Origin: Candidatus Doudnabacteria bacterium
GTDB lineage: Bacteria > Patescibacteriota > Doudnabacteria > UBA920 > 2-01-FULL-46-14
Assembly (NCBI GenBank): GCA_023246055.1
Contig: JAHFJD010000005.1
Coordinates: 1-38,607 of the forward strand
Length of the DNA: 38,607 nucleotides
Reading direction: 5' to 3'
How positions within the stretch are numbered: the first letter of the stretch is position 1; each line of letters opens with the position of its first letter. The notes under the pieces were generated by a model that saw nothing but the letters and a program-made list of their open reading frames with translations, searched no databases and was not told the origin of the DNA. Below, piece by piece: positions 19,296-32,597 of the stretch. Both the position numbers and the translations under genes were made by a program.

Positions 19296-19555
19296 TGCAG
19301 CTTGTTTACAGCGCCGGTTTTCTCAAGTCGCTTTCCCGATTTCCGGACAAGATTCAAAAGAAAACCGCCTCTCTGCTTATGATTTTGCAAAATAATCCGT
19401 TTCACCCCCTGCTTCATACCAAGAAACTCACCGGCGCGCTTGCCGGATTTTTTTCTTTCCGCATCACCCGAGATTACCGGATAATTTTCGAGTTTGCAGA
19501 CCCCAACACTATCCGTCTCATTCGCGCAGCAAACCGCAAAGAAATTTACCGCTGA
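19295..19555 (+). CDS. RelE/ParE-superfamily toxin (module 2)
   Basis: An 86-residue toxin: YSAGFLKSLSRFPDKIQKKT, NPFHPLLHTKKLTGALAGFF, then SFRITRDYRIIFEF and a C-terminal RAANRKEIYR. The FRITRDYRIIF strand and terminal basic residues are typical of this superfamily of ribosome-dependent RNases. A boxA-like motif and structured repeat follow directly. Confidence 0.85.
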   Translation: MQLVYSAGFLKSLSRFPDKIQKKTASLLMILQNNPFHPLLHTKKLTGALAGFFSFRITRDYRIIFEFADPNTIRLIRAANRKEIYR

Positions 19556-19643
19556 TTTTCAAAGAGCCATTTTAGAGAGATTCATTTTCATCTCTCTTCT
19601 GGAGGGAAAATGTTTTTTTACATTTCCGTCCCAGAAGAAAGAT
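19554..19643 (-). repeat. Junction element S1: boxA-like motif plus short imperfect hairpin
   Basis: Minus-strand boxA-like GGCTCTTTGAAAATC (19556-19570) and a hairpin at 19590-19643 with arms ATCTCTCTTCTGGAG and CCCAGAAGAAAGAT around a T-rich loop. It lacks the 101-bp insertion present in the copies at 25061 and 30103, so it gives the ancestral form. Confidence 0.6.
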
Positions 19644-19659
19644 AAATGCGGAAATGCAA

Positions 19660-19762
19660 TTGACAGGTCGCGGCTTTACGGATTAAACTATCGTTATGTA
19701 CCCCGTTAGAAATGTCTGCGGTTTCAACGGCGGCGCATAATTAACCATTTATTTCTAACGGG
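19660..19762 (+). promoter_or_regulatory. Promoter, 14-codon leader ORF and hairpin before hicB
   Basis: -35 TTGACA at 19660-19665 and -10 TAAACT at 19684-19689. A leader ORF MYPVRNVCGFNGGA lies at 19696-19740. CCCGTTAGAAAT (19702-19713) and ATTTCTAACGGG (19751-19762) form a perfect 12-bp stem whose 3' arm touches the hicB ATG. Nearly the same 100 bases precede the DUF433 antitoxin at 30381. Confidence 0.7.
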
Positions 19763-19993
19763 ATGAAAAACCTGTATTACAATCTCATTTTTCAACCAGA
19801 ACCAGAAGGCGGTTTTACTGTAATTGTTCCGGCCTTGCCTGGATGCATTACCTATGGAAAAAATCTGGAAGAGGCAAAGGATATGGCGTCAGACGCTATC
19901 AAGGGATACATTGCCAGTCTGCGCAAAGACCGCGAGCGGATTCCCACTGACGAGAAAAGCTTTATCAGCTCCGTTCAGGTGCATGTCGCCTAA
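19763..19993 (+). CDS. hicB: HicB-family antitoxin
   Basis: A 76-residue antitoxin with the HicB half-RNase-H fold: YYNLIFQPEPEGGFTVIVPA, LPGCITYGKNLEEAKDMASD, AIKGYIASL. It is shorter than HicB proteins with a separate DNA-binding domain, so autoregulation may depend on the leader instead. It overlaps the toxin start by 11 bases. Confidence 0.85.
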   Translation: MKNLYYNLIFQPEPEGGFTVIVPALPGCITYGKNLEEAKDMASDAIKGYIASLRKDRERIPTDEKSFISSVQVHVA

Positions 19994-20198
19994 ACTGCAG
20001 GCTCTGAACTCGAAACAAGTCATCAAAATCCTCAAGCTTCATGGCTTTCGGCTGGATCACACCACTGGAAGTCATTTTATTTTCTACCAGCCGGAAACCA
20101 AACGACGGGTCACAGTTCCGTACCATACCAAAGATCTGCCAAAAGGCACCCTGCTCTCCATATTGAAACAGGCTGATATTTCCAGAGATGAATTGTAA
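19983..20198 (+). CDS. hicA: HicA-family mRNA interferase toxin
   Basis: A 71-residue toxin from the ATG at 19983: SKQVIKILKLHGFRLDHTTG, SHFIFYQPETKRRVTVPYHT, KDLPKGTLLSILKQADIS. The His of GSH is the catalytic residue of the double-stranded-RBD-like fold. It overlaps hicB. Downstream (20199-20425) there is no gene, only a boxA-like motif and two common hairpins. Confidence 0.85.
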   Translation: MSPKLQALNSKQVIKILKLHGFRLDHTTGSHFIFYQPETKRRVTVPYHTKDLPKGTLLSILKQADISRDEL

Positions 20199-20270
20199 TG
20201 CGACTCTCGTTTCCGGAAATCCTGATCAATAAAACGCGAGAGGGCTTTTCGCCGCGGTGTATTGTTTTTT

Positions 20271-20316
20271 GATTGTGAAAGTGCTAATCCCGTCCGCCCT
20301 GGGCGGACTGGGGAAC
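20271..20316 (-). repeat. boxA-like motif and GTCCGCC hairpin repeat
   Basis: Minus-strand GCACTTTCACAATC (20271-20284), a weaker boxA match with the same AATCAAAAAAC continuation, then GCTAATCCCGTCCGCC/GGGCGGAC, which is repeated at 23150-23180. Confidence 0.4.
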
Positions 20317-20425
20317 CAATTTCGGAAACGCTACATGCTGGATTCCCGCTTGCGCGGGAATGACAGAAAGTACTGTCCCCGAAAAAGGTCCCGTCATAAA
20401 CGACAGGACAAATGCGGTGAGGCGG

Positions 20426-20854
20426 TTAACTATGGCAGTCCATAAAATCGCCCTGATAGTTAACTTCCAAAACCTCGCGCAGATTTTCCGGCAAAGAGTT
20501 GATGGCCCGCAGAGCCCAGCCTGACATCACATCCACACGGACTTTCTTGAATCCGCGTTTGACACATCGCCTGACTGCGGCTTTCATAATCGTCTTACCG
20601 TAGCCCTGCCGGCGATGGTCCGGATGAACATACAGCGCCACAATCGTTGGCTGTCCGTAATTTTTCTCGCCGCGCGGTGCAATTGTAGCTACACCGACAA
20701 TTTTCCCTTCCGTCATTCCGGCAATCACCTCGTCACAGCAATAAATCCTGTCTCCGGAAAGTAAACTGCCGACGTTCATGTGATCTCTGCGAAATAACTC
20801 TTCGTCACGCATCCAAACGTGGAGCTCGTCTTTGAAAATCCGCTTGCATTTCAT
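20426..20854 (-). CDS. GNAT-family N-acetyltransferase
   Basis: A 142-residue protein with acetyl-CoA-binding motif A, VALYVHPDHRRQGYGKTIMK (R-x-x-G-x-G), at about residues 72-91 and a preceding strand VGVATIAPRGE. Acceptor unknown. AAGGGGG lies just before the ATG. It is a single minus-strand gene between plus-strand toxin-antitoxin modules, a common kind of cargo in cassette arrays. Confidence 0.85.
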   Translation of the reverse strand: MKCKRIFKDELHVWMRDEELFRRDHMNVGSLLSGDRIYCCDEVIAGMTEGKIVGVATIAPRGEKNYGQPTIVALYVHPDHRRQGYGKTIMKAAVRRCVKRGFKKVRVDVMSGWALRAINSLPENLREVLEVNYQGDFMDCHS

Positions 20855-20960
20855 AAGTCCCCCTTATGGTTATTGCTATTAATTATCGTTTTTGCTTTTC
20901 ATCCCTCTTCTGGAACAAGGATGAATTACCCCGCCGACCTGTGACTAGATGGATAGTAAA

Positions 20961-20989
20961 TTGACATGAGCCATTCATTTCCGTATATT
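20961..20989 (+). promoter_or_regulatory. Leaderless promoter of PIN module 1
   Basis: TTGACA at 20961-20966, 17-bp spacer, TATATT at 20984-20989, ATG at 20996, i.e. at the expected transcription start. Confidence 0.7.
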
Positions 20990-20995
20990 AAATTT

Positions 20996-21166
20996 ATGAA
21001 TGGATCAATCATCAAAACTAATCGGGCTAAACCTCAACTTTACCAAGTTAAACGTGACCTGACCGCCTGGAAATCGATTCAAGGAATGTGGAAGAAAAAA
21101 CGGGTGGCAGATCCTGTAGCTTGGCAGAGAAAAATCCGCAAAGAATGGGAACGTGGCTTGGTTTAA
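20996..21166 (+). CDS. Antitoxin of PIN-domain module 1
   Basis: A 56-residue basic protein (MNGSIIKTNRAKPQLYQVKR ... WKKKRVADPVAWQRKIRKEW). An in-frame ATG at 20966 lies in the -35 box and cannot be the start. The family is not named, but the position nine bases before a PIN gene and the small Trp-rich C-terminus fit a VapB-like antitoxin. Confidence 0.65.
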   Translation: MNGSIIKTNRAKPQLYQVKRDLTAWKSIQGMWKKKRVADPVAWQRKIRKEWERGLV

Positions 21167-21175
21167 CCTGTCCTG

Positions 21176-21541
21176 ATGTTTACTCTTGACACGAACATTC
21201 TCATCTACTACTCTGCCGGCGACGAAAAGGTCGCTGCTTTTTTGCACCGCAATCGGGAACAGATTTTCTATCTGCCCACGATAGCGGCAGCGGAGTTTCT
21301 TTCTCATCCTCGGCTGGACGCTGAAACTACCGCGCTGTTCAAAATCTTCCTCACCCAAACCATTCCCATTGGCCTCGATCTCGGTCTGGCAGAACGCGCG
21401 GCCCAGATCCGTCGGCTTTACGGGTTGAAGCTTGCCGATGCGGTCATTGCCGCGACCGCAGCCTTGACAAAATCCAGTCTGGTCACGAGAAATGTTCGAG
21501 ACTTTCGCAAGATCAAAGAACTTCCACTCATCGAGATCTAA
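21176..21541 (+). CDS. PIN-domain (VapC-like) ribonuclease toxin
   Basis: A 121-residue PIN domain: first acidic residue in FTLDTNILIYYSAG, second in AAAEFLSHP, third in LKLADAVIAATAAL and the terminal TRNVRDFRKI. These form the Mg2+ site of VapC endoribonucleases, many of which cleave tRNA or rRNA. Ends with LPLIEI. Confidence 0.88.
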   Translation: MFTLDTNILIYYSAGDEKVAAFLHRNREQIFYLPTIAAAEFLSHPRLDAETTALFKIFLTQTIPIGLDLGLAERAAQIRRLYGLKLADAVIAATAALTKSSLVTRNVRDFRKIKELPLIEI

Positions 21542-21677
21542 TTTTTAAAAGAACTCAGTGAGAAAACCATATTCTAATTTTCTCAAGCAAACTCTTTTAA
21601 CTTGCTTCCCAATGCTTGATCGGGTAGTATTAACTTGGAAGGACCCTTTTAATTCCATAAACAGGATTTCTAACGAG

Positions 21678-21866
21678 ATGAATCAGCAAACCATTTTTGA
21701 AAAAATCTTGGATATTGAATCAGAGCTTCAGAAACTGAAGCTGGAGGCGTATTTACAGTTGCCGAAGAAACAGAGAGGGACCTCGAAATATTCCGAAAGG
21801 TCTGTGCTGAACGCGGTTCGACTGTCCAGAAACCGTGTCTGGCAGAAGCGTTACGTCGCTGCCTGA
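21678..21866 (+). CDS. Orphan antitoxin-like small protein
   Basis: A 62-residue protein from ATG 21678: MNQQTIFEKILDIESELQKL, KLEAYLQLPKKQRG, then SERSVLNAVRLSRNRVWQKR. The coiled start followed by an EAYLQLPKK motif and C-terminal NAVRxxRNxxWQKRY resembles small antitoxin-type proteins of candidate phyla. No toxin follows: the next bases are a truncated minus-strand gene. The start is preceded by ATTTCTAACGAG, nearly the hairpin arm found before hicB. Confidence 0.4.
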   Translation: MNQQTIFEKILDIESELQKLKLEAYLQLPKKQRGTSKYSERSVLNAVRLSRNRVWQKRYVAA

Positions 21867-21945
21867 AAGCGCTCGGGAGCGCAAAAAACGGGTTGGTTAT
21901 TGTCGCAAACATTTCCCTGACAACGTACTTGATAAAAAACAACAT
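21864..21945 (-). pseudogene. 5' stump of a gene paralogous to the one at 22041-22466
   Basis: From ATG 21945, after GAGGAGG, the sequence reads MLFFIKYVVREMFATITNPF then FALPSAFRQ, close to IYILLVCDLAREILGGLANP then FLSLPAAFQ in the neighbour. The likeness stops near 21864, where the opposite-strand ORF ends. The frame stays open to 21670 but that tail overlaps the plus-strand gene and looks random. Confidence 0.5.
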
Positions 21946-22466: not shown

Positions 22467-22512
22467 ATCTCCTCCTAAAAATTCTTTTTCCAATCTTGAG
22501 TCAGTTTTTGTT

Positions 22513-22560
22513 TGATTGTAAAAGAGCGAACCCCGCAGTGACGCAAAGCGTCTGTTTTGG
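22513..22560 (-). promoter_or_regulatory. boxA-like motif and hairpin in the leader of the 22466 gene
   Basis: Minus-strand GCTCTTTTACAATC at 22513-22526 followed by AAACAAAAAC. Upstream on that strand lies an ACCCC/GGGGT hairpin with a nested GACGC/GCGTC stem (about 22531-22562). Confidence 0.5.
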
Positions 22561-22675: not shown

Positions 22676-22906
22676 ATGAACTATTATTCTTACCGTATAA
22701 TCATTGAGCCTGATGAGAACAATACCTTTCATGGATTTGTGCCGGCCTTGCCCGGCTGTCATACCTGGGGCGGGTCGTTGGAAGAAACCCGTACAAATAT
22801 GCGCGACGCCATTGACGTCTTTTTGCGCAGTCTGAAGGCTGATGGCGAACCCATACCGGAAGATAAAGGCGTGGAAATCGTGGAAACTGTGACGGCCCCT
22901 GCCTGA
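22676..22906 (+). CDS. hicB: HicB-family antitoxin (module 2)
   Basis: A 76-residue HicB: YYSYRIIIEPDENNTFHGFV, PALPGCHTWGGSLEETRTNM, RDAIDVFLRSL. Related to the 19763 protein but only moderately similar, and it lacks the 14-codon leader and hairpin. Expressed from a near-leaderless promoter. Confidence 0.87.
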   Translation: MNYYSYRIIIEPDENNTFHGFVPALPGCHTWGGSLEETRTNMRDAIDVFLRSLKADGEPIPEDKGVEIVETVTAPA

Positions 22907-22908
22907 CT

Positions 22909-23139
22909 ATGACCAAACTGCCGGTAATCAAAGATCGAATATTGATCCAGGTTTTGAAAAAACTTGGATTTTTTGAACATCCGGAAACCGGAAGCTCGCA
23001 CCTCGTCTTCAAACATCCCGACGGCCGCCGCACTACTGTGGCCAGGCACTCCGGAAAAGATATTCCCCGCGGCACCCTGCGCGCCATTCTCCGGGACATC
23101 AATATTTCTATTGATGAATTCAACATGCTTTTACACTAA
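22909..23139 (+). CDS. hicA: HicA-family toxin (module 2)
   Basis: A 76-residue HicA: IQVLKKLGFFEHPETGSSHL, VFKHPDGRRTTVARHSGKDI, PRGTLRAILRDINISIDEF. Catalytic His in GSSH. It begins two bases after the antitoxin stop. Confidence 0.87.
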   Translation: MTKLPVIKDRILIQVLKKLGFFEHPETGSSHLVFKHPDGRRTTVARHSGKDIPRGTLRAILRDINISIDEFNMLLH

Positions 23140-23140
23140 T

Positions 23141-23342
23141 TTCAAAACGCTAATCCCGTCCGCCCTGGGCGGACTGGGAAACGTTAGAGAGTAAATGCTC
23201 TCTTCTGGAGCAAGGATTAGGATTAAGTAGGAGAGTCCCCCTCTTTCTAAGATTCCCTAGAAAGAGGGGGATCTTAACCTCATCCCTGCCCCGGAAGAGA
23301 GGAGGAAGGCAGCCGCGAATGCAACTGGCGACGCCTTCCTCC
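23141..23342 (-). repeat. Junction element E1
   Basis: Weak boxA remnant at 23141-23151. Imperfect hairpin arms are CTCTCTTCTGGAGCAAGGAT (23198-23217) and ATCCCTGCCCCGGAAGAGAG (23282-23301). The loop carries a private hairpin (CCCCCTCTTTCTA / AGAAAGAGGGGG type). A second hairpin GGAGGAAGGC / GCCTTCCTCC lies at 23301-23342, just past the end of the 23351 gene. Confidence 0.65.
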
Positions 23343-23350
23343 AAAAAATT

Positions 23351-23908
23351 TCAATCCTCCATTGGTTTTTTGGAAACGAACTCCTTCCACGCCTGTTCCG
23401 CCTCAGAGCGGAACATCAACATAGAAATGGGAGGCTCCCCAGTCTCGTCAACTGCCCATTCGGGCACAGGCAGATCGACTATATCCTCAACCAGCCGGAG
23501 TGGCTGGTCAGGCACAGCCTGGAGCATGATCGCCTCCAGATCTTTCCCCAGTTCCGAACCGGCCTCCATGCGAGATCCAAAACTGGTCCCGGTCCAACCA
23601 GCTTGGATGCTAACATGGGTCGCGCCAAGCACGGGTAAATAAATTCCATTTTCCCCGCGCTCACCTATAACCTCCCGCATCACCTCAACGTAGTCGAAGT
23701 GATGCACTGTCGCCCCCTTTTCAAAAACCATATCCTGCGCGTTGGGGGGAAGGGGCGTGTAGCCGAAGGCTGCGGGCTGGAGTTCGAAAACCAGCCCCGC
23801 CGCACGAAACTTTTCAACGACCTCGGCAAACGTAAACCGAGGCCGCTGTTCTAAACCATCCAAAGCCTTTTTAACTGCGGCCGCGACTTTTTTACTCATC
23901 TTACTCAT
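23351..23908 (-). CDS. Hypothetical protein, 185 residues
   Basis: A soluble protein with basic helical N-terminus (SKKVAAAVKKALDGLEQRPR), a central region with VLGATHVSIQAGWTGTSFGS and an acidic C-terminal half. AGGAG precedes the ATG. No family recognised. A small hairpin ATTCCCAA/TTGGGAAT lies in its leader at 23922-23938; the remainder of 23909-24091 has no gene I can support. Confidence 0.5.
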   Translation of the reverse strand: MSKMSKKVAAAVKKALDGLEQRPRFTFAEVVEKFRAAGLVFELQPAAFGYTPLPPNAQDMVFEKGATVHHFDYVEVMREVIGERGENGIYLPVLGATHVSIQAGWTGTSFGSRMEAGSELGKDLEAIMLQAVPDQPLRLVEDIVDLPVPEWAVDETGEPPISMLMFRSEAEQAWKEFVSKKPMED

Positions 23909-24091
23909 AATTTTTCTCCTATTCCCAAGTTGGGAATCGCTTCTTCTATTCCGGCAGAGAGCCGGAAAACAGCGAAAGGGAAAAACAACCCAAAAAAATC
24001 CTACAACATTTGCTCGATTGGCAAAAAGAGCCTTTCCGCCGCATTTCTGACAACCCCGAGGAAAAGGGGTAAATCATGGTTTGAACGTACC

Positions 24092-24976
24092 TCATTTCCC
24101 CTCCCCAAGGAAGTTTTTGACAAAACTCAAGACTTCCTCGTGATTGGGATAGCCGCCCCAGTAAGCGGTTTCCCCTGTTTTGCCCAGGCCGGAGCCGCCG
24201 TTCCAGCCTTCAAACTTTTCTTTCAGCGAAGCGCACAGCGCGCCGTCGCCAAAAAAGTTTGCCTCGCCGTCGCCGGAAAGGATGAGGAGTTGGTCATACT
24301 GGCCAAACATCCTGTCGGCCACGGTGGCGGTCTTGGAGTGGCTCATTTTTACAATCGTGAGCCGCCCCTCAACCGCCTTCTCGGCGATCGCCCGCAGGCC
24401 TTCGGCTTCCTGGTCCGGGGTGATGCCTTGCGCGGCGCGATCAAAAGCCCGCACCCGGTCCACTTCCTCGGCTGTGGCGACAATCGCCAGCATGCCGGGA
24501 ATGTACCGGGCGTCGTTGGCGGCCACGAGCTCGATCCAGCGGCGGGTCGCGGCCGAAAAATTCAGCACTTGCCGGATTTGGGCGGCGGAAACTTTGCCAT
24601 CCTCGCCCCCAGACTCGTTCAACCTCTCCGCCCACCTATCCAAAAAAGCAATTACCTGGGTGAGCGAAGCCGCTTCGCCAGCGCGGGCGAAATGGTGGTC
24701 AATGAGCACCGGGATTGGCGCGCCCTCTGGCCAATCCTTGACCCCGCATTCTACGAAAACGACTACAGGATCGCCCTCGATGGTGACCCGTTTTGTCGGG
24801 TAGCCTTCCCGACTGCCGGTTATCTCGACCACCTCCAGGCCGAGATCGGCCGGACTGAATTCTTTTTGACCCCAGCCTTTGACCGGCTGGAGCCACTCGA
24901 TACCCGCGGCGGAGAGAATGTTTTTTACAACTACCATCTCCCCGTCGTTGCCGCCGCAGACTGCTTTTATTTTCAT
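24092..24976 (-). CDS. Divergent DHH-superfamily phosphoesterase-like protein
   Basis: A 294-residue protein. VLIDHHFARAGEAASLTQVI near residue 110 gives the DHH-type signature; VAANDARYIPGMLA near 170 could supply a further metal-binding Asp. The C-terminal part has LLILSGDGEANFFGDGALCA then GGSGLGKTGETAYWGGYPN, like the Gly-rich substrate-binding DHHA1 domain. The N-terminus (CGGNDGEMVVVKNILSAAG) lacks a standard D-x-D motif, so activity is uncertain. AAGGAG lies before the ATG. Upstream is the conserved leader with CCCGACGGCATTCGGG hairpin and boxA-like motif. Confidence 0.55.
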   Translation of the reverse strand: MKIKAVCGGNDGEMVVVKNILSAAGIEWLQPVKGWGQKEFSPADLGLEVVEITGSREGYPTKRVTIEGDPVVVFVECGVKDWPEGAPIPVLIDHHFARAGEAASLTQVIAFLDRWAERLNESGGEDGKVSAAQIRQVLNFSAATRRWIELVAANDARYIPGMLAIVATAEEVDRVRAFDRAAQGITPDQEAEGLRAIAEKAVEGRLTIVKMSHSKTATVADRMFGQYDQLLILSGDGEANFFGDGALCASLKEKFEGWNGGSGLGKTGETAYWGGYPNHEEVLSFVKNFLGEGK

Positions 24977-25025
24977 TTTTCACTCCTTGCCCGAATGCCG
25001 TCGGGACCGCGGTTGTTTTGTTTTT

Positions 25026-25113
25026 GATTGACAAAGAACAATTTAGAGAGATTCGTTTTCATCTCTCTTCTGGAGGGGAAATGTTTTTTCCATTTCCATC
25101 CCGGAAGAAAGAT
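25026..25113 (-). repeat. Junction element S2: boxA-like motif plus hairpin
   Basis: Minus-strand TGTTCTTTGTCAATC (25026-25040), then the hairpin with arms starting ATCTCTCTTCTGGAG (25061) and ending CCCGGAAGAAAGAT (25113), loop GGGGAAATG/CATTTCC. The 24976 gene starts 50 bases downstream on the minus strand. Confidence 0.65.
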
Positions 25114-25116
25114 AAA

Positions 25117-25217
25117 TCCCGCACCTTTCGAGCCTGGGGTATTGAACCCCGCTGAAAGTCAATTCTGCTTCCTCATCCCCGCGGCAAGCCGCTCACGTTT
25201 TCGGGAAAGGTGCGGGA
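25117..25217. mobile_element. 101-bp MITE-like insertion
   Basis: Ends TCCCGCACCTTTC and GAAAGGTGCGGGA are inverted repeats; TAAA flanks it on both sides. The same 101-bp sequence sits at 30160-30260, while the equivalent position near 19644 is empty. It has internal palindromes and no ORF. Confidence 0.6.
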
Positions 25218-25231
25218 TAAATGCAGAAATA

Positions 25232-25270
25232 CAATTGACAGGTCCCGGCTTTACGGATTAAACTATCGTT
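25232..25270 (+). promoter_or_regulatory. Duplicated antitoxin promoter (copy at 25 kb)
   Basis: TTGACA followed by the same spacer as at 19660 with one change, then TAAACT. Here the ATG at the transcription start is the antitoxin itself, not a leader peptide. Confidence 0.65.
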
Positions 25271-25522
25271 ATGAAGGAAATTACTACTGCCAGAATAAAA
25301 GACAATACCCTGACACTTCCCAAGACAGCGACAAAGAACTGGCGCAATGCTGATATTGCTGTTAGCGTGTCAGAAGACACCATTATTCTGAAGAGGGTCG
25401 CAAAGCCCAATTTCTGGGAGACTTGGCGGAAGTTGAAAAAATCGGGCCGCGCGGTCAATCAGAAAGATGTTGACAATGCGGTGAAATGGGCGAGAAGCAA
25501 AACTTATGCGGGTGGTACTTGA
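25271..25522 (+). CDS. AbrB-like antitoxin of PIN module 2
   Basis: An 83-residue protein whose N-terminus (TTARIKDNTLTLPKTATKNW, then AVSVSEDTIILKRV) has the swapped-hairpin AbrB/MazE pattern with L-P. The C-terminal helix (VNQKDVDNAVKWARSKTY) should bind the toxin. It overlaps the PIN gene by 17 bases. Confidence 0.75.
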   Translation: MKEITTARIKDNTLTLPKTATKNWRNADIAVSVSEDTIILKRVAKPNFWETWRKLKKSGRAVNQKDVDNAVKWARSKTYAGGT

Positions 25523-25916
25523 TACCAACGTTCTGATCTCGGCATTGCTCTGGAGAAAACGAAGCTGGGAAATTTTTCGCCTCGCTTCGTCTGGTAAAAT
25601 AATCATCTGTACATCGCGGGAAATTCTTCAGGAGTTTTCCCGTGTTTTATTTTACCCGCATATCTCTGCCCGGCTCCAAAAGGTTGGCAAGACCCCATCT
25701 ATGGTGACCGATGAGCTCCTGGCCGCAACCTCATACTATGACCAAACTCCCACAATTTTTCTGATTACCGAAGACCCTTCTGATAATGCCATTCTCGCCT
25801 GCGCCGCTGCTGCAAAACCAGATTTTATCATCTCCGGTGATCGGCACCTGCTCAAACTGAAAAATTTTCAGGGAATTCCAATAGTCGCCCCAGCACAATT
25901 CCTGAAACAGTCTTAA
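25506..25916 (+). CDS. PIN-domain toxin (module 2)
   Basis: A 136-residue PIN_3-type domain: MRVVLDTNVLISALLWRKRS (first Asp), SREILQEFSRVLFYP (Glu), EDPSDNAILACAAAAKPDFI (Asp pair) and SGDRHLLKLKNFQGIPI. Complete acidic site. Putative RNase. Confidence 0.88.
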   Translation: MRVVLDTNVLISALLWRKRSWEIFRLASSGKIIICTSREILQEFSRVLFYPHISARLQKVGKTPSMVTDELLAATSYYDQTPTIFLITEDPSDNAILACAAAAKPDFIISGDRHLLKLKNFQGIPIVAPAQFLKQS

Positions 25917-26033
25917 ATTTTCAAAGAACAATTTAGAGAGATTCGTTTTCATCCCTCTTCTGGAGCAAAAATTCATTCCTGCGCCAAAAGAAGGTCGGAC
26001 GAAGAGTGAAGAGTAAACACTCTTCGTCCGGTG
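25917..26033 (-). repeat. Junction element S3 (degenerate)
   Basis: Minus-strand TGTTCTTTGAAAAT (25917-25930), degenerate hairpin arms (CTCTTCTGGAGCA, CCTGCGCCAAAAGAAG) and a private hairpin GGACGAAGAGTG/CACTCTTCGTCC (about 26000-26033). 26034-26243 has small inverted repeats but no gene I can support. Confidence 0.5.
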
Positions 26034-26243
26034 CTCTTTGTTTTTCGCCCTTCAAATCTTTTGAAGAACGAATGGCAATCCATTGCCGGCAAATTCACCG
26101 CCTCCTCGCCCCTTATCCTCGGTCCGCGTTGCGCGGCATAGGTCTCAAGGTTTGGGACAAGTCATTCGCAATCCTTTGCGAAAGGAGCGCTGGGCGCTCA
26201 CGGCTGTTCGGCGCCTGCCACGCGCCGCGACCGCCTTTATAGG

Positions 26244-26618
26244 TCAGGAGTCAAAGGCCTTGTCCAGGAAATATTGGGCGCATTCTTCCGCCCTCATTTC
26301 TTTCAAGGACAAGGTTTCATCCGAACTCCAGGAATCGTCTCGGACGCAGCCAGCGCCATACTCTTCCTTGTAAAGAGTAAACGCTAACGGCCTGCCGATC
26401 CTGAATTTCAGACGCCTGGCTACTGCCTTAAAGGCTACTATGGCATCGGGCTCGTCGGTCCAAATGCCATAATGGGTCGTGGTATAATAGTCCTTCGCGG
26501 CGTCATACCCGCTGCGGCTACGACTCTCAAGGACAATCATCCACACCCGGCCTTCACCTAAAAACTCCGTTGCTGTTTTCAGCAACGCGAGCTTTAGGAC
26601 AGGCTTCAGGTCTGCCAT
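26244..26618 (-). CDS. Hypothetical protein, 124 residues
   Basis: A soluble protein: MADLKPVLKLALLKTATEFL ... YDAAKDYYTTTHYGIWTDEP ... and a C-terminal helix (LKEMRAEECAQYFLDKAF). GGAGGAG is present upstream of the ATG. No family recognised. Cassette-type single gene. Confidence 0.5.
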   Translation of the reverse strand: MADLKPVLKLALLKTATEFLGEGRVWMIVLESRSRSGYDAAKDYYTTTHYGIWTDEPDAIVAFKAVARRLKFRIGRPLAFTLYKEEYGAGCVRDDSWSSDETLSLKEMRAEECAQYFLDKAFDS

Positions 26619-26798
26619 TCCACACTCCTCCTTTCTTTGGCGTCAGAGTCAATCCCGCGAATCTGGCGATCCGCAAAAAAGCCCTTAGTGCCGTGGAGGA
26701 CTTTGCCCCCTCTTTGCTTCCTCTCCCCTTGCGGGAGAGGATTGAGGTGAGGGGTAAAATCCTCCACAGCACTGCCTGTTTTAAGAGAGAGTTTTAAT

Positions 26799-27016
26799 CT
26801 CTCTTCTCGACAGGAAAAATTTAAGTAGGAGAGCCCTTACCTCTACCCGCTCTATTCCCCTCCTCGTGCTGTGTCCGCCGAAGCCTCGGCGTAGGCTGGG
26901 AGGAGGCCCGCCCGCCTGGACTTCGTCCAAGCGAAGTCGGGCGGGGGCTAGGGGAGGTTAAAGATAAAAGTCTTAAATTTTCCTGCCGGGAAGAGAGGGG
27001 GTCGAAGGTGCAAATT
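26799..27016 (-). repeat. Junction element E2 with large loop insert
   Basis: Arms CTCTCTTCTCGACAGGAAAA and TTTTCCTGCCGGGAAGAGAG are nearly complementary and extend through TTTAAG/CTTAAA (ends at 26997). The loop contains CCTCCCCTAGCC-type inverted repeats and a GCCCGCC stem. The second hairpin here is GGGGTCGAA/TTCGACCCC instead of the GGAGGAAG type. No clear boxA copy. Confidence 0.6.
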
Positions 27017-27160
27017 CGACCCCACGAAACTTATAAAATCCTCCGTATGATTTCTTTCCTCTTTTATTCCCCTTGCCGCGAAAGTTGTCTCGGCTCGGTT
27101 CCGACTCGAGGAGAGCCGGTTTCCGCCTTGCGGGCAGAACGGTATCGTCTATCGCGAGGG

Positions 27161-27310
27161 TTAACCGCCGTTTCGGTACACCTCCTGCGCCTTGATCCTT
27201 GCTGCAGGAAAACTTTCAAATTCCCTGCAACTCTCACCTGGACCAAAGAACTCGCCGACTATCTTAACCTGCATACGCAGTGTCAGAGGATAGCGACTGG
27301 GTTTCTCCAT
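27161..27310 (-). CDS. Possible small protein, 49 residues
   Basis: From ATG 27310: MEKPSRYPLTLRMQVKIVGE, FFGPGESCREFESFPAARIK, stop at 27161. A GGAGG lies 20-odd bases upstream, rather far. It fills the otherwise empty 27017-27346 interval and follows the 27347 gene closely. It may be a remnant. Confidence 0.35.
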   Translation of the reverse strand: MEKPSRYPLTLRMQVKIVGEFFGPGESCREFESFPAARIKAQEVYRNGG

Positions 27311-27346
27311 TGCTGGAGGGTGACCCCGTAGATATTTCCTCCGGAG

Positions 27347-27775
27347 TTATTCTACTACTTCAAAATTCTCCGGATTGCTACCGCCCAGATCAGTCCCTTT
27401 TGGGACTAACATTTTTATCCTCATAGAATCGTCCATGACTCTATGAAAATAGAGAAATGTCAGCTCCCGATAATTGCACCTCTCATGGCTGCAATCAAAG
27501 GACTCCCAGACCGACTGGAGCGGTTTTTTGCCGCATCCAAGGAGCCGAGATGTAAGCTCCTCATCGCGTTCGATTATGATCTCATCGCACGATGAGGCTG
27601 TTTCCAACTCCCCGGGCGTCAAATCCGAGGGATAACGGTGTTTTTGCCCGATGGGCTGATTTGCCAACGGGGCGAAAACAATCTCATACCCTCCGCAGCC
27701 TTCAAACAGGCTACGAAGCGTATCCTTTTCATCAACAGACGGCTCCTGATCAAGGAGCCAAGCAATCTTTTTCAT
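27347..27775 (-). CDS. Hypothetical protein, 142 residues
   Basis: A soluble protein with a Rossmann-like start (KKIAWLLDQEPSVDEKDTLR, SLFEGCGGYEIVFAPLAN) and several Cys. No family named. GAGGAGGG lies six bases before the ATG. Its leader is the best-preserved copy of the conserved unit: boxA-like motif, A-rich tract, CGACGGCATTCGGGC hairpin, Shine-Dalgarno site. Confidence 0.55.
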   Translation of the reverse strand: MKKIAWLLDQEPSVDEKDTLRSLFEGCGGYEIVFAPLANQPIGQKHRYPSDLTPGELETASSCDEIIIERDEELTSRLLGCGKKPLQSVWESFDCSHERCNYRELTFLYFHRVMDDSMRIKMLVPKGTDLGGSNPENFEVVE

Positions 27776-27824
27776 CTGACCCTCCTCTGCCCGAATGCCG
27801 TCGGCGCCGCGGGTTTTGTTTTTT

Positions 27825-27998
27825 GATTGTCAAAGAACAATTTGAGAGATAAATCATCTCTCTTCTGGAGCAAGGATCAAGATTAAGTAGGAGAGTCCAG
27901 CCCCAGTTTTTTGAAACTGGGGCTGGGTCTTAACCTCATCCCTGCCCCGGAAGAGAGGAGGAAGGCAGTCGCGAATGCAACTGGCGACGGCTTCCTCC
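27825..27998 (-). repeat. Junction element E3 (best-preserved copy)
   Basis: On the minus strand in order: GGAGGAAGCCGTCGC/GCGACTGCCTTCCTCC hairpin (27957-27998); CTCTCTTCCGGGGCAGGGAT and ATCCTTGCTCCAGAAGAGAG arms (27938-27957 and 27858-27877) around a CAGCCCCAGTTT/AAACTGGGGCTG loop hairpin; GAGAGAT/ATCTCTC hairpin; boxA-like TGTTCTTTGACAATC (27825-27839). Confidence 0.7.
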
Positions 27999-28016
27999 GA
28001 AAAGTTTGGCCGAGAA

Positions 28017-28778
28017 TTAAATTGTCTTTACTTCAATTCTCGAGCCGATTTTTTTTGAGAGATCTTTTATGTTTTGGCCGCCGCGGCCAATGACGAGCCC
28101 TACCAGGTCTTTCGGGACCCGGATCACAGAGCCCAGGCGCACTATCAGCGCGGCCGTGTGATGGGCACTCCCGTGGACCATGAGGACGTGGTATCCAGCT
28201 GGACACTCACCGGTCCGAGTATCCAAAGCCCTGCCGAGTAGGGTCAGGTCAAATCCGCTGACCTTGGCCACGTCGCGGCCAGCCATCAGCCGCTCGGTTT
28301 CCCGGACAATGTCTGCGTTCCGCTCTTCCTGCCAAATCTTCTGGCAGGCAAGTTGGGAATTGGGGTCGCCGACCTCAATCTCTACCTGCTCATCGGAGCA
28401 AGAGATGATTACGGGCGACACCCAGTGAAAATTATTGTCCCTTATGTCTGCCTTCTTGGCAACCACCTTGACCTTGGGGAGGGCAAGGTGGATCGAATTA
28501 CGGCTTTTGACCGTACTTCTTCCCCTGTACTCGATCCCCTCCGCAAATCCTTCCCGGACGCACCGCTCCGCGGCGCGGAAGGGGTAATAATTGTACACCC
28601 CCAGGTGGTCCGGATTTTCGCCGACGTACCGGGCAACTCTTAGAGCCTCCCGGTCTTCGTCAAAAAAGGGGTTGTCGTCGGGCCATACAACTTCCAGATC
28701 CAGCCTTAAGACTGGTCTGGTCTCGGTTTTGAGGTAGACCACCTTGGTCACCTCGTCTAACAAAAAGGTTTTTGTCAT
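28017..28778 (-). CDS. KH-domain protein
   Basis: A 253-residue protein from ATG 28778 (MTKTFLLDEVTKVVYLKTET); AGGAGG lies just before it, and the open frame upstream is leader sequence. The C-terminus VPKDLVGLVIGRGGQNIKDL then SKKIGSRIEVKTI is a type I KH RNA-binding domain with the GRGG loop. The N-terminal 200 residues are unrecognised; they contain VIISCSDEQVEIEVGD and YHVLMVHGSAHHTAALIV. Possibly an RNA-binding regulator. Confidence 0.65.
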   Translation of the reverse strand: MTKTFLLDEVTKVVYLKTETRPVLRLDLEVVWPDDNPFFDEDREALRVARYVGENPDHLGVYNYYPFRAAERCVREGFAEGIEYRGRSTVKSRNSIHLALPKVKVVAKKADIRDNNFHWVSPVIISCSDEQVEIEVGDPNSQLACQKIWQEERNADIVRETERLMAGRDVAKVSGFDLTLLGRALDTRTGECPAGYHVLMVHGSAHHTAALIVRLGSVIRVPKDLVGLVIGRGGQNIKDLSKKIGSRIEVKTI

Positions 28779-29346
28779 TCTCCTCCTTCTTGCCCGAATG
28801 CCGTCGGCGCCGCGGGTTTTGTTTTTTGATTGTCGCGGAGGCGAATTCGACAGGATCGAGTACCTGTTCGAACTGGTCCTTGTAAACCTCCGCGAACCCA
28901 ATGGGATCCGTTCCGTTTTTGGCGATTTGCGGAAGCCATTTTGCAAGCTCCTGCGCCCCCAGCTTCCTCGCCTCATGGTCCCCCTCGTAGCCGATGACCT
29001 TGAAGACATTCATTGTCTCAAGATCGACCGGCGCATTTCTCATATCCACGAGATGTCCTATTTCGTGGAAGAGAATCATCCAAAATTTTGATCGCATGTA
29101 CACCCATTTTATGGGGATTACGATCTCAAAATTTGGTCCAGGAACTTTTACATGGGTATGCGCCAAAGCGTCCCCCTGGGGCAACCCCCACCATAAGGGG
29201 AAACGCAGCATTGCCCCGTAGTGACGGGCAATTGCTTTGGAAAGCCGGAAAGCTCGGACAGCTTCCGGCAATTGGTGCAACCTTTTTCTTAACGTACCCG
29301 GCTTTCGCGACGGGTAAAAAAACAAGATCCACAATATTTTTATCAC
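28660..29346 (-). CDS. Zinc metallopeptidase-like protein whose 3' end runs into the next leader
   Basis: Starts with GTG 29346 after GGAGGGAAA. It carries WMILFHEIGHLVDMR, an HExxH motif, with downstream Glu residues (YEGDHEARKLGAQELAKW) that could be the third ligand. From about residue 170 (ASATIKKQNPRRRRHSGKKE) the sequence is translated leader DNA: the frame passes through the A-rich tract and GCATTCGGGC hairpin and overlaps the KH gene by over 100 bases. The natural C-terminus appears lost at a junction near 28834, where the boxA motif is also cut. Confidence 0.65.
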   Translation of the reverse strand: MIKILWILFFYPSRKPGTLRKRLHQLPEAVRAFRLSKAIARHYGAMLRFPLWWGLPQGDALAHTHVKVPGPNFEIVIPIKWVYMRSKFWMILFHEIGHLVDMRNAPVDLETMNVFKVIGYEGDHEARKLGAQELAKWLPQIAKNGTDPIGFAEVYKDQFEQVLDPVEFASATIKKQNPRRRRHSGKKEENDKNLFVRRGDQGGLPQNRDQTSLKAGSGSCMARRQPLF

Positions 29347-29395
29347 TTTCCCTCCAATGCCCGAATGCCGTCGGGACCGCGGTTGTTTTGGTTTT

Positions 29396-29568
29396 GATTG
29401 TCAAAGAACAATTTGAGAGATAAATCATCTCTCTTCTGGAGCAAGGATCAAGATTAAGTAGGAGAGTCCAGCCCCAGTTTTTTGAAACTGGGGCTGGGTC
29501 TTAACCTCATCCCTGCCCCGGAAGAGAGGAAGAAGGTAGTGGCTGTGCAGGCCACTGTCCTTCCTCCA
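29396..29568 (-). repeat. Junction element E4
   Basis: Almost identical to E3 over boxA (29396-29410), the long arms (29429-29448, 29509-29528) and the CAGCCCCAGTTT loop hairpin. The terminal hairpin differs: its inner stem is AGTGGC/GCCACT within GGAAGAAGG/CCTTCCTCC. Confidence 0.7.
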
Positions 29569-29577
29569 AAAAAACTA

Positions 29578-30021
29578 CTAGTCCTCCTTCAGCCATTGGG
29601 TGAGCCATTCTGGCTCAATCCCCGCCTCACGGCAAACGGCCCCGATTACGGAGTCGTTATCATAAAACACCCGCCCTGTTGGATGTCCGTTAATAACATT
29701 CCCCGGCCCATCAATGGGCAGGGTGTTGAGGACGAATACCGCTTTTTTCCATTGGAGATGAGCCTGGTCGTAATGGAACTCCGGCTCATACGTCCAATTT
29801 CCTACTTGAGATCCTGGGCAGTAGGCCAGCTGCCTATGGCTCAGTCGAACGGATCCCTCCTGCGTCTTTGTAGCGGCTGAAAAGATCTGTCCGATCTCTC
29901 CCTGCTGCAATTGAGCGAGGATCTCCACATGGAGGTCCTCCCGACGGTGGGAAACCTCGATGGTACCACACGTAGCCGCTCCGCGAGCAGCGGCTTTTTT
30001 TATCAATCTTTCTTTTCTCAT
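29578..30021 (-). CDS. Hypothetical protein, 147 residues
   Basis: From ATG 30021, preceded by GGAGGAGA: MRKERLIKKAAARGAATCGT ... EDLHVEILAQLQQGEIGQIF ... GVIGAV-type C-terminus ending EPEWLTQWLKED. The open frame extends upstream to 30105, but that part is leader. No family recognised. Single minus-strand cassette gene. Confidence 0.5.
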   Translation of the reverse strand: MRKERLIKKAAARGAATCGTIEVSHRREDLHVEILAQLQQGEIGQIFSAATKTQEGSVRLSHRQLAYCPGSQVGNWTYEPEFHYDQAHLQWKKAVFVLNTLPIDGPGNVINGHPTGRVFYDNDSVIGAVCREAGIEPEWLTQWLKED

Positions 30022-30071
30022 TCTCTTCTCCTCCGCAGTTTTGCGAGATGCGGCGCTCGGTTTTTGTTTTT

Positions 30072-30155
30072 GATTGTAAAGGTGCCTAGAGAGATTCATT
30101 TTCATCCCTCTTCTGGAGGGGAAATGTTTTTTCCATTTCCATCCCGGAAGAAAGA
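30072..30155 (-). repeat. Junction element S4
   Basis: boxA-like GCACCTTTACAATC (30072-30085) and the short hairpin with CTTCTGGAGGGGAAATG / CATTTCCATCCCGGAAG arms, as in S2. Confidence 0.6.
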
Positions 30156-30159
30156 TTTA

Positions 30160-30260
30160 TCCCGCACCTTTCGAGCCTGGGGTATTGAACCCCGCTGAAA
30201 ATCTATTCTGCTTCCTCATCCCCGCGGCAAGCCGCTCACGTTTTCGGGAAAGGTGCGGGA
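30160..30260. mobile_element. 101-bp MITE-like insertion (second copy)
   Basis: Same length and nearly the same sequence as 25117-25217, including the TCCCGCACCTTTC/GAAAGGTGCGGGA ends. The left flank reads TTTA instead of TAAA. Confidence 0.6.
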
Positions 30261-30278
30261 TAAATGCAGAAATACAAT

Positions 30279-30380
30279 TGACAGGTCGCGGCTTTACGGA
30301 TTAAACTATCGTTATGTACCCCGTTAGAAATGTCTGCAGTTTCAACGGCGGCGCATAATTAACCATTTATTTCTAACGGG
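30279..30380 (+). promoter_or_regulatory. Promoter, 14-codon leader ORF and hairpin before the DUF433 antitoxin
   Basis: Same TTGACA/TAAACT promoter as at 19660, leader ORF MYPVRNVCSFNGGA (30314-30358), and CCCGTTAGAAAT (30320-30331) with ATTTCTAACGGG (30369-30380) directly before the ATG. Only one base differs in the leader ORF (Gly to Ser). Confidence 0.7.
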
Positions 30381-30611
30381 ATGAAAGAACGAATTATCAT
30401 TGATCCAAAAATCCTGGTTGGCAAGCCGGTTGTCAAAGGCACGAGGATCCCCGTGACTCTGATCATCAATTTGCTGGCTCACGGATACACGGTAGACCGT
30501 ATCATTGAAGCCTACCCGGTTTTGACGCGTGAGGATATTGATGCGGCGCTCTCTTACACGGAAAAGCGTCTGGATCGCGAAGAAGTTCATGCTTTTCCCG
30601 CGGAAGCATAA
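30381..30611 (+). CDS. DUF433-family antitoxin
   Basis: A 76-residue protein: IIDPKILVGKPVVKGTRIPV, TLIINLLAHGYTVDRIIEAY, PVLTREDIDAALSYTEKR. This is the DUF433 (VapB-like, wHTH) family usually paired with DUF5615 PIN-like toxins; such a toxin, truncated, follows. Confidence 0.85.
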   Translation: MKERIIIDPKILVGKPVVKGTRIPVTLIINLLAHGYTVDRIIEAYPVLTREDIDAALSYTEKRLDREEVHAFPAEA

Positions 30612-30631
30612 TCAAGCTTACTTGCGACCTC

Positions 30632-30763
30632 ATGCTCCGCTTCCTGCTCGATGCCAATCTCTCGCCTGAAACTGCTGTCTTTCTCCGCCAGCAGTTTTCT
30701 TTTGATGTGACGAGTTTGCTGGAAAGGAAGCGAGCCGGGTTACCTACGAATTCAAAAGATTGA
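30632..30763 (+). pseudogene. Truncated DUF5615 PIN-like toxin
   Basis: A 43-codon ORF MLRFLLDANLSPETAVFLRQ, QFSFDVTSLLERKRAGLP, stop. The first Asp motif (LLDANLSP) is that of DUF5615, which normally runs to about 110 residues. The stop codon lies within the TTGACA -35 box of the next module, so the insertion of that module probably cut the gene. The DUF433 antitoxin is therefore without a working toxin here. Confidence 0.6.
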
Positions 30764-30787
30764 CATTTATTCATCGCCTGTTAAAAT
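30760..30787 (+). promoter_or_regulatory. Leaderless promoter of module 8
   Basis: TTGACA 30760-30765, 16-bp spacer, TAAAAT 30782-30787, ATG at 30794. Confidence 0.7.
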
Positions 30788-30793
30788 AAATCC

Positions 30794-31024
30794 ATGCGTA
30801 CAGTGACTATTAATCTTTCTAAACAAACTACGGAGAAGCTCCGCCACTTGGCTTTGCGCTATGGTTTTTCCATACCAGAACTCTCTGCTCGAATTCTTGA
30901 GGGAATTAGTTCCGAATTTCCTCCCGAACGGCTGGCTGATTATCAACATCCCGAAAGACTTCGCGCGTCTCTGAAACGGGCCCTTGCTGATTTTAAAGCT
31001 GGACGAATTTCGGAAACCCTGTGA
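30794..31024 (+). CDS. Ribbon-helix-helix antitoxin (module 8)
   Basis: A 76-residue protein: RTVTINLSKQTTEKLRHLAL, RYGFSIPELSARILEGISSE is a ribbon-helix-helix fold. The C-terminal helix (ERLRASLKRALADFKAGR) should bind the toxin. GTGA overlap with the toxin start. Confidence 0.78.
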   Translation: MRTVTINLSKQTTEKLRHLALRYGFSIPELSARILEGISSEFPPERLADYQHPERLRASLKRALADFKAGRISETL

Positions 31025-31278
31025 AGCTGCTCTATGCCGATGAATTCCGTAAACAATCACGAAAACTGCCGATGGACGCGCAAAGACTTTACCAAAAGCA
31101 GGAGATAATTTTTCGACAAAATTGGAAGGATCCCCGTCTGCATGTCAAAAAACTCATAGACCATCCCAATGCTTTTTCTTTCCGCATCACACGCCGCTGG
31201 CGCGTGATTTTTATTTTCGCCGCAGAAGATACCGCGCTGTTTCTCAGCATCGGTCACCGCAAAGACGTTTATCGCTGA
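31021..31278 (+). CDS. RelE/ParE-superfamily toxin (module 8)
   Basis: An 85-residue protein from GTG 31021: LLYADEFRKQSRKLPMDAQR, LHVKKLIDHPNAFSFRITRR, WRVIFIF and terminal SIGHRKDVYR. Same fold as the 19295 toxin. Confidence 0.85.
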   Translation: MKLLYADEFRKQSRKLPMDAQRLYQKQEIIFRQNWKDPRLHVKKLIDHPNAFSFRITRRWRVIFIFAAEDTALFLSIGHRKDVYR

Positions 31279-31300
31279 TCCCCGATCGCGGTCGAGGACA

Positions 31301-31470
31301 AATTTTCAAAGAACAATTTGAGAGATAAATCATCTCTCTTCTGGAGCAAGGATAAATTACCTGCCCACCGAAGCTCAAAGAGCGTAGGCGGGAGTAGGAG
31401 ATATAACTGATCCCTGCCCCGGAAGAGAGGAGGAAGGCAGTCGCGAATGCAACTGGCGACGCCTTCCCCT
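31301..31470 (-). repeat. Junction element E5
   Basis: boxA-like TGTTCTTTGAAAATT (31301-31315), close to the Bacillus rrn form. Arms 31334-31353 and 31410-31429. The loop cargo differs (GCCCACCGAAGCTC / GCGTAGGCGGG). Terminal hairpin GGAGGAAGGC/GCCTTCC. Confidence 0.65.
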
Positions 31471-31480
31471 CAAAAATTTA

Positions 31481-31789
31481 CTAATCCTCCTTATAATTGC
31501 GTGAAGCTTGTTCGTCTGAATTGATTAGTTCAGACGCCACTGCGCGCTTCAGACGCAATGCCGGAGTATTCACTCTCGGGCGGCCCTGCTCTTCCGGAAG
31601 AGCTGTGTCCGCTATCCGTCCTGAAAGACTTCAGATGACTTTGTTTGGTTATCACCCCAAACTCCATCACCAAATAGTCCATGCTTTCAGGAAAGTTCCA
31701 AGAACGTATTCTTAGAACCGGTTCCGCGCTTATGGACGCGGCCGAAGACAGAATCCGAAAAATTGCTTTCGCGGAGCGTCTTCTTTCGT
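31481..31789 (-). pseudogene. Degenerate coding remnant
   Basis: Read leftward, one frame gives EPVLRIRSWNFPESMDYLVM then EFGVITKQSHLK; the next frame continues SLSGRIADTALPEEQGRPRV then NTPALRLKRAVASELINSDE and ends YKED, stop at 31481. The stop position relative to element E5 matches that of neighbouring cassettes. Probably a frameshifted single-gene cassette. No family recognised. Confidence 0.3.
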
Positions 31790-31796
31790 GACATAA

Positions 31797-31826
31797 TACC
31801 CTGCTATTTTAGTAGCAAGGTATTTA
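31797..31826 (-). terminator. Hairpin after the 31827 gene
   Basis: AATACCTTGCTA / TAGCAGGGTATT pair around CTAAAA, directly after the stop. No strong T-run. Confidence 0.45.
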
Positions 31827-32174
31827 CTAATCTCTTGGTTTTTCTACAACCGAAAACCAAGGCTGGAGAAATTTTTCAATCCTCTCCCCCTTTTCCCAAT
31901 CAAGTCCGGCAACTTGATAGAATACCGGACTGGGAATAACCTTGTCAGCGATACTGACAAGGTCGTAAAAACCATTGTCAGCCCGCAGAATCAGAATTTC
32001 TGACCCCTGGGGGGCACTCCCCATCAGGTCAAAAAATTCCTTATTTTTTCCCGCGAACTCCGGGTTGCACGTGCTAAAATCCAGCACTCGACCCGCCACA
32101 GGATTTTGCAGCGGCGGAGGGACGGGGACCACCGCACCGGAAAAAATCCTTTTAATGAACCGTAGCAGCTTCAT
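31827..32174 (-). CDS. Hypothetical protein, 115 residues
   Basis: From ATG 32174 preceded by GGGGGAGGAG: MKLLRFIKRIFSGAVVPVPP, PPLQNPVAGRVLDFS, ... SEILILRADNGFYDLVSIAD. The amphipathic N-terminus and Pro-rich stretch suggest membrane association. No family recognised. It has an unusually long leader (32175-32340) with ATAAAATTTT/AAAATTTTAT arms before the boxA-like motif. Confidence 0.5.
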   Translation of the reverse strand: MKLLRFIKRIFSGAVVPVPPPLQNPVAGRVLDFSTCNPEFAGKNKEFFDLMGSAPQGSEILILRADNGFYDLVSIADKVIPSPVFYQVAGLDWEKGERIEKFLQPWFSVVEKPRD

Positions 32175-32331
32175 GCGATTCTCCTCCCCCACCTGCTTCT
32201 TGCGAAGTTCAGGTATTCCATAGCCGGAGAGCTATAAAATTTTAGGGGCATCTTCTTTTCTTGCGAAAAGAAACCTACCTACTAATTTAATAGGTAAATC
32301 TCTTTCCGCAAAATTTTATATCGTCCTTATT

Positions 32332-32597
32332 AAATTTCAAAGAACTGTTTTTATTTTTTCCTGTTCTGGAACGGAAAGAGTTTTCCATCCCACAAGAGAG
32401 ACACATTGCATAGACAGGATAGCTGTATCTCTCTTCTCGACAGGAAAAATTTAAGTAGGAGAGCCTTTACCTCTATCCGCTCTATTCCCCTCCTCGTGAG
32501 GAGGGGCTAGGGGAGGTTAAAGATAAAAGTCTTAAATTTTCCTGCCGGGAAGAGAGGAGGAAGGCAGTGGCTGTGCAGGCCACTGTCCTTCCTCCAA
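32332..32597 (-). repeat. Junction element E6
   Basis: boxA-like AGTTCTTTGAAATTT (32332-32346), an extra partial hairpin (CCTGTTCTGGAACGG), long arms CTCTCTTCTCGACAGG... (from 32429) and ...CCTGCCGGGAAGAGAG (to 32556) with CCTCCCC loop cargo like E2, and a GGAGGAAGGCAGTGGC/GCCACTGTCCTTCCTCC terminal hairpin (32556-32597). Confidence 0.65.

Follow-up and report, generated by a model that had tools for sequence, protein, structure and literature searches.

The junctions between genes of a long minus-strand array in a Candidatus Doudnabacteria bacterium carry a short, repeated motif. This motif is probably the boxA of the host's own Nus antitermination system, placed again and again along one predicted transcription unit of ~34 kb. 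The window, meaning the whole stretch of DNA analysed, covers 38,607 nt (contig JAHFJD010000005.1, positions 1–38,607, assembly GCA_023246055.1; called C52). The host is a small, ultrareduced bacterium with a genome of 1.16 Mb that is 92.8% complete. The greater part of the minus-strand message, within genes as well as between them, is folded beyond the needs of protein or codon usage. Repeated use of boxA on a unit of hyperstructured mRNAs appears to be new, and no description of boxA arrays or of hyperstructured bacterial coding operons was found in the open-licence papers searched.

The array proceeds beyond the end of the window. Window positions 38488–38607 are identical to positions 1–120 of contig C17 (L218), and an open reading frame (ORF) of ~122 codons spans this overlap; C17 is therefore taken to continue the window, and composite 38375–38816 is not non-coding. 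Composite coordinates are window positions, followed by the C17 position + 38487. Approximately 21 boxA-like sites fall within ~31 kb, including 9 junction sites on C17.

The junction motif

The 15-mer TGTTCTTTGACAATC, allowing up to 3 mismatches, matches the window 9 times against 1.44 expected, and none of 100 shuffles reaches 9. Seven of the 9 matches fall at array junctions, in every case on the minus strand: exact copies at 27825 and 29396, one mismatch at 25026, two at 25916 and 31301, and three at 19554 and 22514. The bare 7-mer GTTCTTT shows the same bias, occurring 19 times on the minus strand and never on the plus strand of composite 17.4–51.2 kb (shuffles: mean 3.4, maximum 8). The sequence-only reading had proposed a motif at these junctions with every copy facing the minus direction, and this is borne out. 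It had counted ten junctions and two truncated copies. These positions are real, although three (20271, 30072 and 32332) are loose, with at least 4 positions differing from TGTTCTTTGACAATC by direct comparison, those at 23141 and 28828 are remnants of the motif, and a site at 21541–21554 was overlooked.

Ten of the 21 listed sites lie 61–173 nt upstream of a minus-strand start codon. The other 11 are found near opposite-strand genes, chiefly toxin-antitoxin ones, at a distance of 12–156 nt from the 3' end, so the earlier statement that most copies precede single genes does not hold for about half of them. This split between gene leaders and opposite-strand 3' ends indicates that placement tracks the minus-strand transcript rather than the genes. 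A hairpin precedes boxA in all 9 array junctions folded. The hairpin previously described is real in most copies, but its sequence varies between junction types, the stems being the three given in Table 1 and GCGAGAAA/TTTCTCGC.

The Rfam search of the window matched no bacterial RNA family even at E ≤ 1. The array DNA has no match among 48 relatives of the order or in viral contigs. A 30-nt exact pattern has no copies elsewhere in genome contigs; a 17-nt pattern gives many single matches elsewhere, many apparently coding or due to chance, and none with an array. Two other readings of junction features were rejected. TTTGACA does not read as a promoter element, since most junctions are without a fitting -10 element, and the junction hairpins are mostly not intrinsic terminators, the T-run being missing for most on both strands.

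Relation to the rRNA leaders

The host's own 16S leader, GTCCGACTTGTCGGACCAGATCTTTGACAATTGAATAGTG, consists of a hairpin followed by TCTTTGACAAT, and TCTTTGACAAT is also present in the best array copies. The leader hairpin is seen in the centroid fold and not in the minimum free energy structure. Leaders of relatives in the order carry GTTCTTTGGCAATT (G003), GTTCTTTAACAGCT (G028) and GCACCTTAACAGTT (G038), the same variation as that among the array copies. A boxA matrix trained solely on 9 hand-aligned rRNA leaders of the order was applied to 58 kb. It finds 7 array sites scoring at least 12.8 on the minus strand and none on the plus strand (shuffles: mean 0.45, maximum 3). Its top site, GTTCTTTAACAATT at composite 42361, heads the operon containing Csx3-AAA. 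NusB is encoded (PF01029 at C36:13957, E 4.5e-35). The boxA identity proposed earlier is supported by the own-rRNA comparison, the rRNA matrix and the presence of NusB. As a separate observation, the host's 16S rRNA gene is broken by long insertions and split across C19 (L053) and C2 (L219).

Several points weigh against reading the array as one unit punctuated by boxA. The matrix derives from 9 hand-aligned sites and, when run over 597 kb of the genome, also yields 16 scattered matches of at least 12.8. The array's own ~1.1-kb leader has no matrix site above 5.6, and the first array boxA (composite 50057) itself scores below 5.6, being identified by a GTTCTTTT core and a hairpin. Several copies are degenerate (20271, 30072, 23141 and 44289). 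Across 380 genomes of the phylum, GTTCTTTGANAAT occurs 9 times in the host and at most 5 times in every other genome, so that manifold repetition was seen only in the host. The join of C17 to C52 depends on the 120-nt overlap. Minus-strand genes at 18.0–22.5 kb are without structure or weakly structured, and the downstream end of the array may therefore be a separate unit. Finally, Rho was not found in the 92.8% complete genome, where TIGR00767 matches only the alpha and beta subunits of F1-ATPase.

The predicted transcription unit

The array is apparently read from one promoter. A scan of 15.2–35 kb for promoter-like sites of at least 10/12 gives 9 on the plus strand, most of which precede toxin-antitoxin genes, against a single one on the minus strand. 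A strong minus-strand promoter lies at C17:12627–12599, divergent from a TrmB-type regulator (C17:13173–13973, PF01978). It is followed by a structured, untranslated leader of ~1.1 kb, towards the end of which the first boxA-like site appears. The strongest minus-strand terminator is at 17464–17434. The predicted unit is ~34 kb long, the window representing its downstream two thirds, and all listed boxA-like sites are on its strand and inside it. Its genes include Csx3-AAA, a second Csx3-type AAA protein, HD, MoxR, vWA, radical SAM, KH and a C3a116/DHH_CorA-like protein. Viral contigs gave no match in a search for vWA.

The single strong promoter and the terminator at the far end are consistent with read-through, as put forward in the earlier antitermination proposal. 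Passage of strong terminators is not supported, as most junction hairpins are not minus-strand intrinsic terminators, and Rho was not found. We infer from sequence that Nus factors would bind the array transcript and promote such read-through. The polymerase would start at the C17 promoter, pass the leader and meet a boxA at nearly every junction, in most cases directly behind a small hairpin, which is also the arrangement in the host's 16S leader. Each boxA RNA would load NusB-S10 onto RNA polymerase, which could then pass long untranslated stretches as well as pause sites and hairpins resembling terminators, and boxA repetition would renew the modification. If so, the read-through would also lay antisense RNA on the embedded opposite-strand toxin-antitoxin genes. 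Rho is the usual target of rRNA antitermination. As none was found, the benefit of boxA would have to be against intrinsic pausing or termination, and the host would let one ask what Nus factors do without Rho.

Other elements occur around the ends of the unit. A gene for a 23S rRNA intervening-sequence protein (PF05635, L218:12770–13138, plus strand) separates the TrmB gene from the array promoter. In three genomes a large protein is encoded tail to tail with the TrmB regulator (L218:13948–17259, minus; L267:3628–6099, minus; L269:5081–7513, plus). The L267 and L269 proteins are homologous (26%, E 2e-55), while the host copy is related only over a short stretch (E 2e-6). Just past the array terminator, a 56-nt repeat (89% identical) containing the palindrome GGTTCATGAACC occurs at 16680–16735 and 17383–17438, around a YafQ-like toxin-antitoxin pair.

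Folding of the messages

Over composite 23–51 kb on the minus strand (window 23000–38607 and L218:1–12600), most RNA, both coding and untranslated, is hyperstructured by dinucleotide and synonymous controls. This feature, larger than the motif itself, had escaped the sequence-only reading. Untranslated stretches fold very strongly, one of 551 nt having z -8.1 and two others being listed in Table 1, and the array coding controls in these fold tests are also extreme. Coding RNA was compared with synonymous-codon permutations in which the protein and the codon counts are fixed. Most minus-strand array genes have z between -3 and -16 (884-aa protein -16.2, HD -8.8, AAA -7.4, vWA -7.3); the minus-strand gene at 29.6 kb is without structure or weakly structured. 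The plus-strand toxin-antitoxin genes range from -1.5 to +0.2, and neighbouring and housekeeping genes are near 0, with the exception of XerD (-3.1). The evidence omits 31827–32172, C17:1669–2386, a 139-aa gene of G128 and G096 8708–9019, where the start or frame was off; the G269 Csx3-AAA test is counted from the in-frame gene.

On retesting, 13 of 13 genes beat all 24 synonymous permutations. The gain is larger for sense than for antisense (-6.9 versus -4.7 kcal/100 nt, Wilcoxon p=0.0005), an indication that the effect lies in RNA and not in DNA. Using a fixed standard deviation for the genome-wide scan, 74% of windows in the array have z ≤ -2 on a strand, versus 16% when 597 kb of the host genome are sampled.

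The most likely reason for the folding is message stability, perhaps against RNases that cut single strands. RelE, HicA and PIN toxins are RNA cutters, and resistance to such RNases is the preferred idea because the array embeds RelE, HicA and PIN genes and Csx3-type proteins. If it is correct, the armoured messages would survive an attack by single-strand-cutting RNases (RelE, HicA and PIN toxins, type III CRISPR effectors) in which the remaining mRNA is lost.

A second locus of the host (contig C24, L293, 14430–16240, minus strand) has the same promoter type (TTGACG...GGTATATACT) and strongly folding stretches. Positions 14835–15788 encode a 317-aa protein that looks secreted and has collagen-like Gly-X-Y repeats.

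Table 1. Features of the array within the window
Feature	Position	Strand	Remarks
Strong intrinsic terminator	17434–17464	-	13-bp stem, T-run; downstream end of predicted minus-strand unit
RelE/ParE-like toxin-antitoxin pair	19080–19555	+	own promoter TTGACA/TAAAAT
boxA-like GCTCTTTGAAAATC	19554–19567	-	abuts stop of RelE/ParE-like gene (+)
HicBA pair	19763–20198	+	
boxA-like GCACTTTCACAATC	20271–20284	-	after hairpin TCCGCCC/GGGCGGA
boxA-like GTTCTTTTAAAAAT	21541–21554	-	abuts stop of PIN gene (+)
boxA-like GCTCTTTTACAATC	22514–22527	-	after another hairpin, GACGC/GCGTC
HicBA pair	22676–23139	+	RNA unstructured
Degenerate copy GCGTTTTGAAATTA	23136–23149	-	at 3' end of HicA (+)
294-aa protein, PADLOC models C3a116 and DHH_CorA	24092–24976	-	hyperstructured coding RNA
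Putative boxA GTTCTTTGTCAATC	25026–25039	-	63 nt upstream of minus coding sequence
PIN-domain toxin-antitoxin pair	25271–25916	+	RNA unstructured
Putative boxA GTTCTTTGAAAATT	25916–25929	-	abuts stop of PIN toxin gene (+)
Untranslated, 728 nt, very strong fold	26619–27346	-	z -12.5 minus, -6.4 plus
Putative boxA GTTCTTTGACAATC	27825–27838	-	after hairpin; 63 nt upstream of minus coding sequence
KH-domain protein	28017–28778	-	hyperstructured coding RNA by dinucleotide and by synonymous tests
Truncated copy of the leader, lacking the boxA core	28791–28834	-	
Putative boxA GTTCTTTGACAATC	29396–29409	-	after hairpin GAGAGAT/ATCTCTC; 63 nt upstream of minus coding sequence
Divergent boxA-like GCACCTTTACAATC	30072–30085	-	67 nt upstream of minus coding sequence
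boxA-like GTTCTTTGAAAATT	31301–31314	-	36 nt from 3' end of ParDE-like pair (+)
Untranslated, structured, 345 nt	31482–31826	-	z -6.5
boxA-like GTTCTTTGAAATTT	32332–32345	-	
884-aa protein, vWA (35356–37077) and MoxR-type ATPase (37079–38374)	32689–38374	-	hyperstructured coding RNA

Csx3-AAA operons in other genomes

A search for Csx3-AAA in the 380 genomes of the phylum gave matches in six besides the host. Operons were examined in one genome of the same order (G042) and three more distant ones (G096, G128 and G269). In all four a TTGACA/TATA-type promoter lies ahead of a long leader, which is strongly structured in G042 and G269. A TrmB homologue is divergent in G042, G269 and G128, whereas none was found in G096. 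Hyperstructured coding RNA occurs in G042, G269 and G096; in G128 two genes are hyperstructured and the Csx3 genes weakly so. The G269 leader carries a boxA-like site scoring 18.2 (0 of 300 shuffles) and the G042 leader one with P=0.027, while that of G128 is given as a score only, 12.2. G096 has only TCTTAACAATTAG ahead of its Csx3 gene. Two plus-strand boxA-like matches in G042 (6754 and 7368) run against the gene direction and were not used.

Tight message folding is thus a strong signal, common in varying degree to the Csx3-AAA operons of four other Patescibacteria genomes. These are chromosomal protein-coding operons apparently selected for RNA structure over kilobases, which hints at an RNase-resistant defence or stress regulon. 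It is tentatively suggested, as a possibility that we regard as doubtful, that they belong to an undescribed class of RNA-armoured operons in Patescibacteria. Such operons would combine a TrmB-type regulator, a strong TTGACA/GGTATA promoter, a long and structured leader, boxA and genes selected for double-stranded coding RNA (Csx3-AAA, MoxR, vWA, HD, radical SAM and ORFans), the armour serving against RNases and boxA serving the transcription of hairpin-dense RNA.

Alternative explanations

The junctions might instead be the cores of recombination sites in integron-like cassettes, where unrelated genes are exchanged at the hairpin and core and the likeness to boxA is incidental. Near-identical flanks do border unrelated genes (D1 97%, D4 98%, D8 98%), and the core is retained while flanks change on both sides. 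As in integron arrays, the hairpin junctions all face the same way, toxin-antitoxin pairs and ORFans are present, and the genes are mostly promoterless. However, no IntI-type integrase was found in the 92.8% complete genome; its only two Phage_integrase matches, a XerC/D-like ORF beside clpB and a partial phage-type integrase, are not at the array. By inspection, the junction core GTTCTTTGA is not the attC GTTRRRY/RYYYAAC. Exchange of cassettes also leaves the match to the own rRNA leader unexplained, and the same signals mark the large Csx3-MoxR-vWA operon and the leader, which lack cassette-like ends. Overall this explanation is unlikely.

A second alternative, that boxA does not promote read-through but acts as a repressor on the translation or expression of the gene that follows it, draws on the known sites outside rRNA in E. 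coli suhB and a Citrobacter ParE-like toxin gene, where the tested sites act in this manner (PMC5725501), and several array copies do lie 61–73 nt upstream of a start codon. It is made quite improbable by the half or so of the copies that are at opposite-strand 3' ends with no minus-strand gene closely after, and by the involvement of Rho, not found in the host, in the published suhB effect. Long flanks common to several copies would also suit a duplicated intergenic repeat without a role, spread through recombination between hairpins; this is very improbable given that the core is kept in copies with unrelated hairpins and downstream sequence, that the independent rRNA matrix detects the copies, and that boxA-like sites recur in the leaders of related operons in other genomes.

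Comparison with known systems

A repeated boxA signal that would act in antitermination has partial parallels. In CRISPR-array leaders boxA prevents Rho termination and guards transcription of a long untranslated array, whereas here the array is one of genes and boxA is repeated internally. RNA viruses have genome-scale ordered RNA structure: for kilobases their coding RNA is folded much more strongly than synonymous controls. The array coding RNA is likewise more stable than its synonymous-codon controls across kilobases, but it is bacterial and chromosomal, biased to the sense strand and limited to particular operons. RfaH is a factor of processive antitermination specific to certain operons. 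Similarly, NusG paralogs such as LoaP (PMC12691694) allow long operons to be read through, although the signal at the array is a boxA per junction, and the search of array proteins turned up no NusG paralog of this kind.

A further resemblance is to the boxB-boxA-boxC leader of rRNA operons (PMC10250234, PMC4807359, PMC6614801), with a hairpin followed by TCTTTGACAAT, NusB present, and downstream RNA that is long, highly structured and partly untranslated. Unlike that leader, the array is protein-coding, has ~21 copies rather than one and lacks, at its junctions, the rRNA element AATAGTGA after boxA, and no Rho was found. The sequence-only reading knew of no description of boxA use outside rRNA operons for such arrays. 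Use outside rRNA as such is already known from suhB and the ParE-like toxin gene, and 0–7 putative boxA sites are reported per gamma-proteobacterial genome (PMC5725501). Those leaders resemble the array in having boxA in the 5' untranslated region of protein genes, toxin-antitoxin genes included. They differ in being single, repressing sites, as opposed to repeats along one unit that are often antisense to toxin-antitoxin genes. In the array, boxA would act over and over as a signal for processivity, along a protein-coding unit of ~34 kb.

Other features of the window

Outside the array, a reverse transcriptase (RVT_1) is encoded at 3010–4401 on the plus strand and is followed by a protein matching Lycopene_cyc at 4406–5086 on the same strand. 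These genes might form a diversity-generating retroelement.

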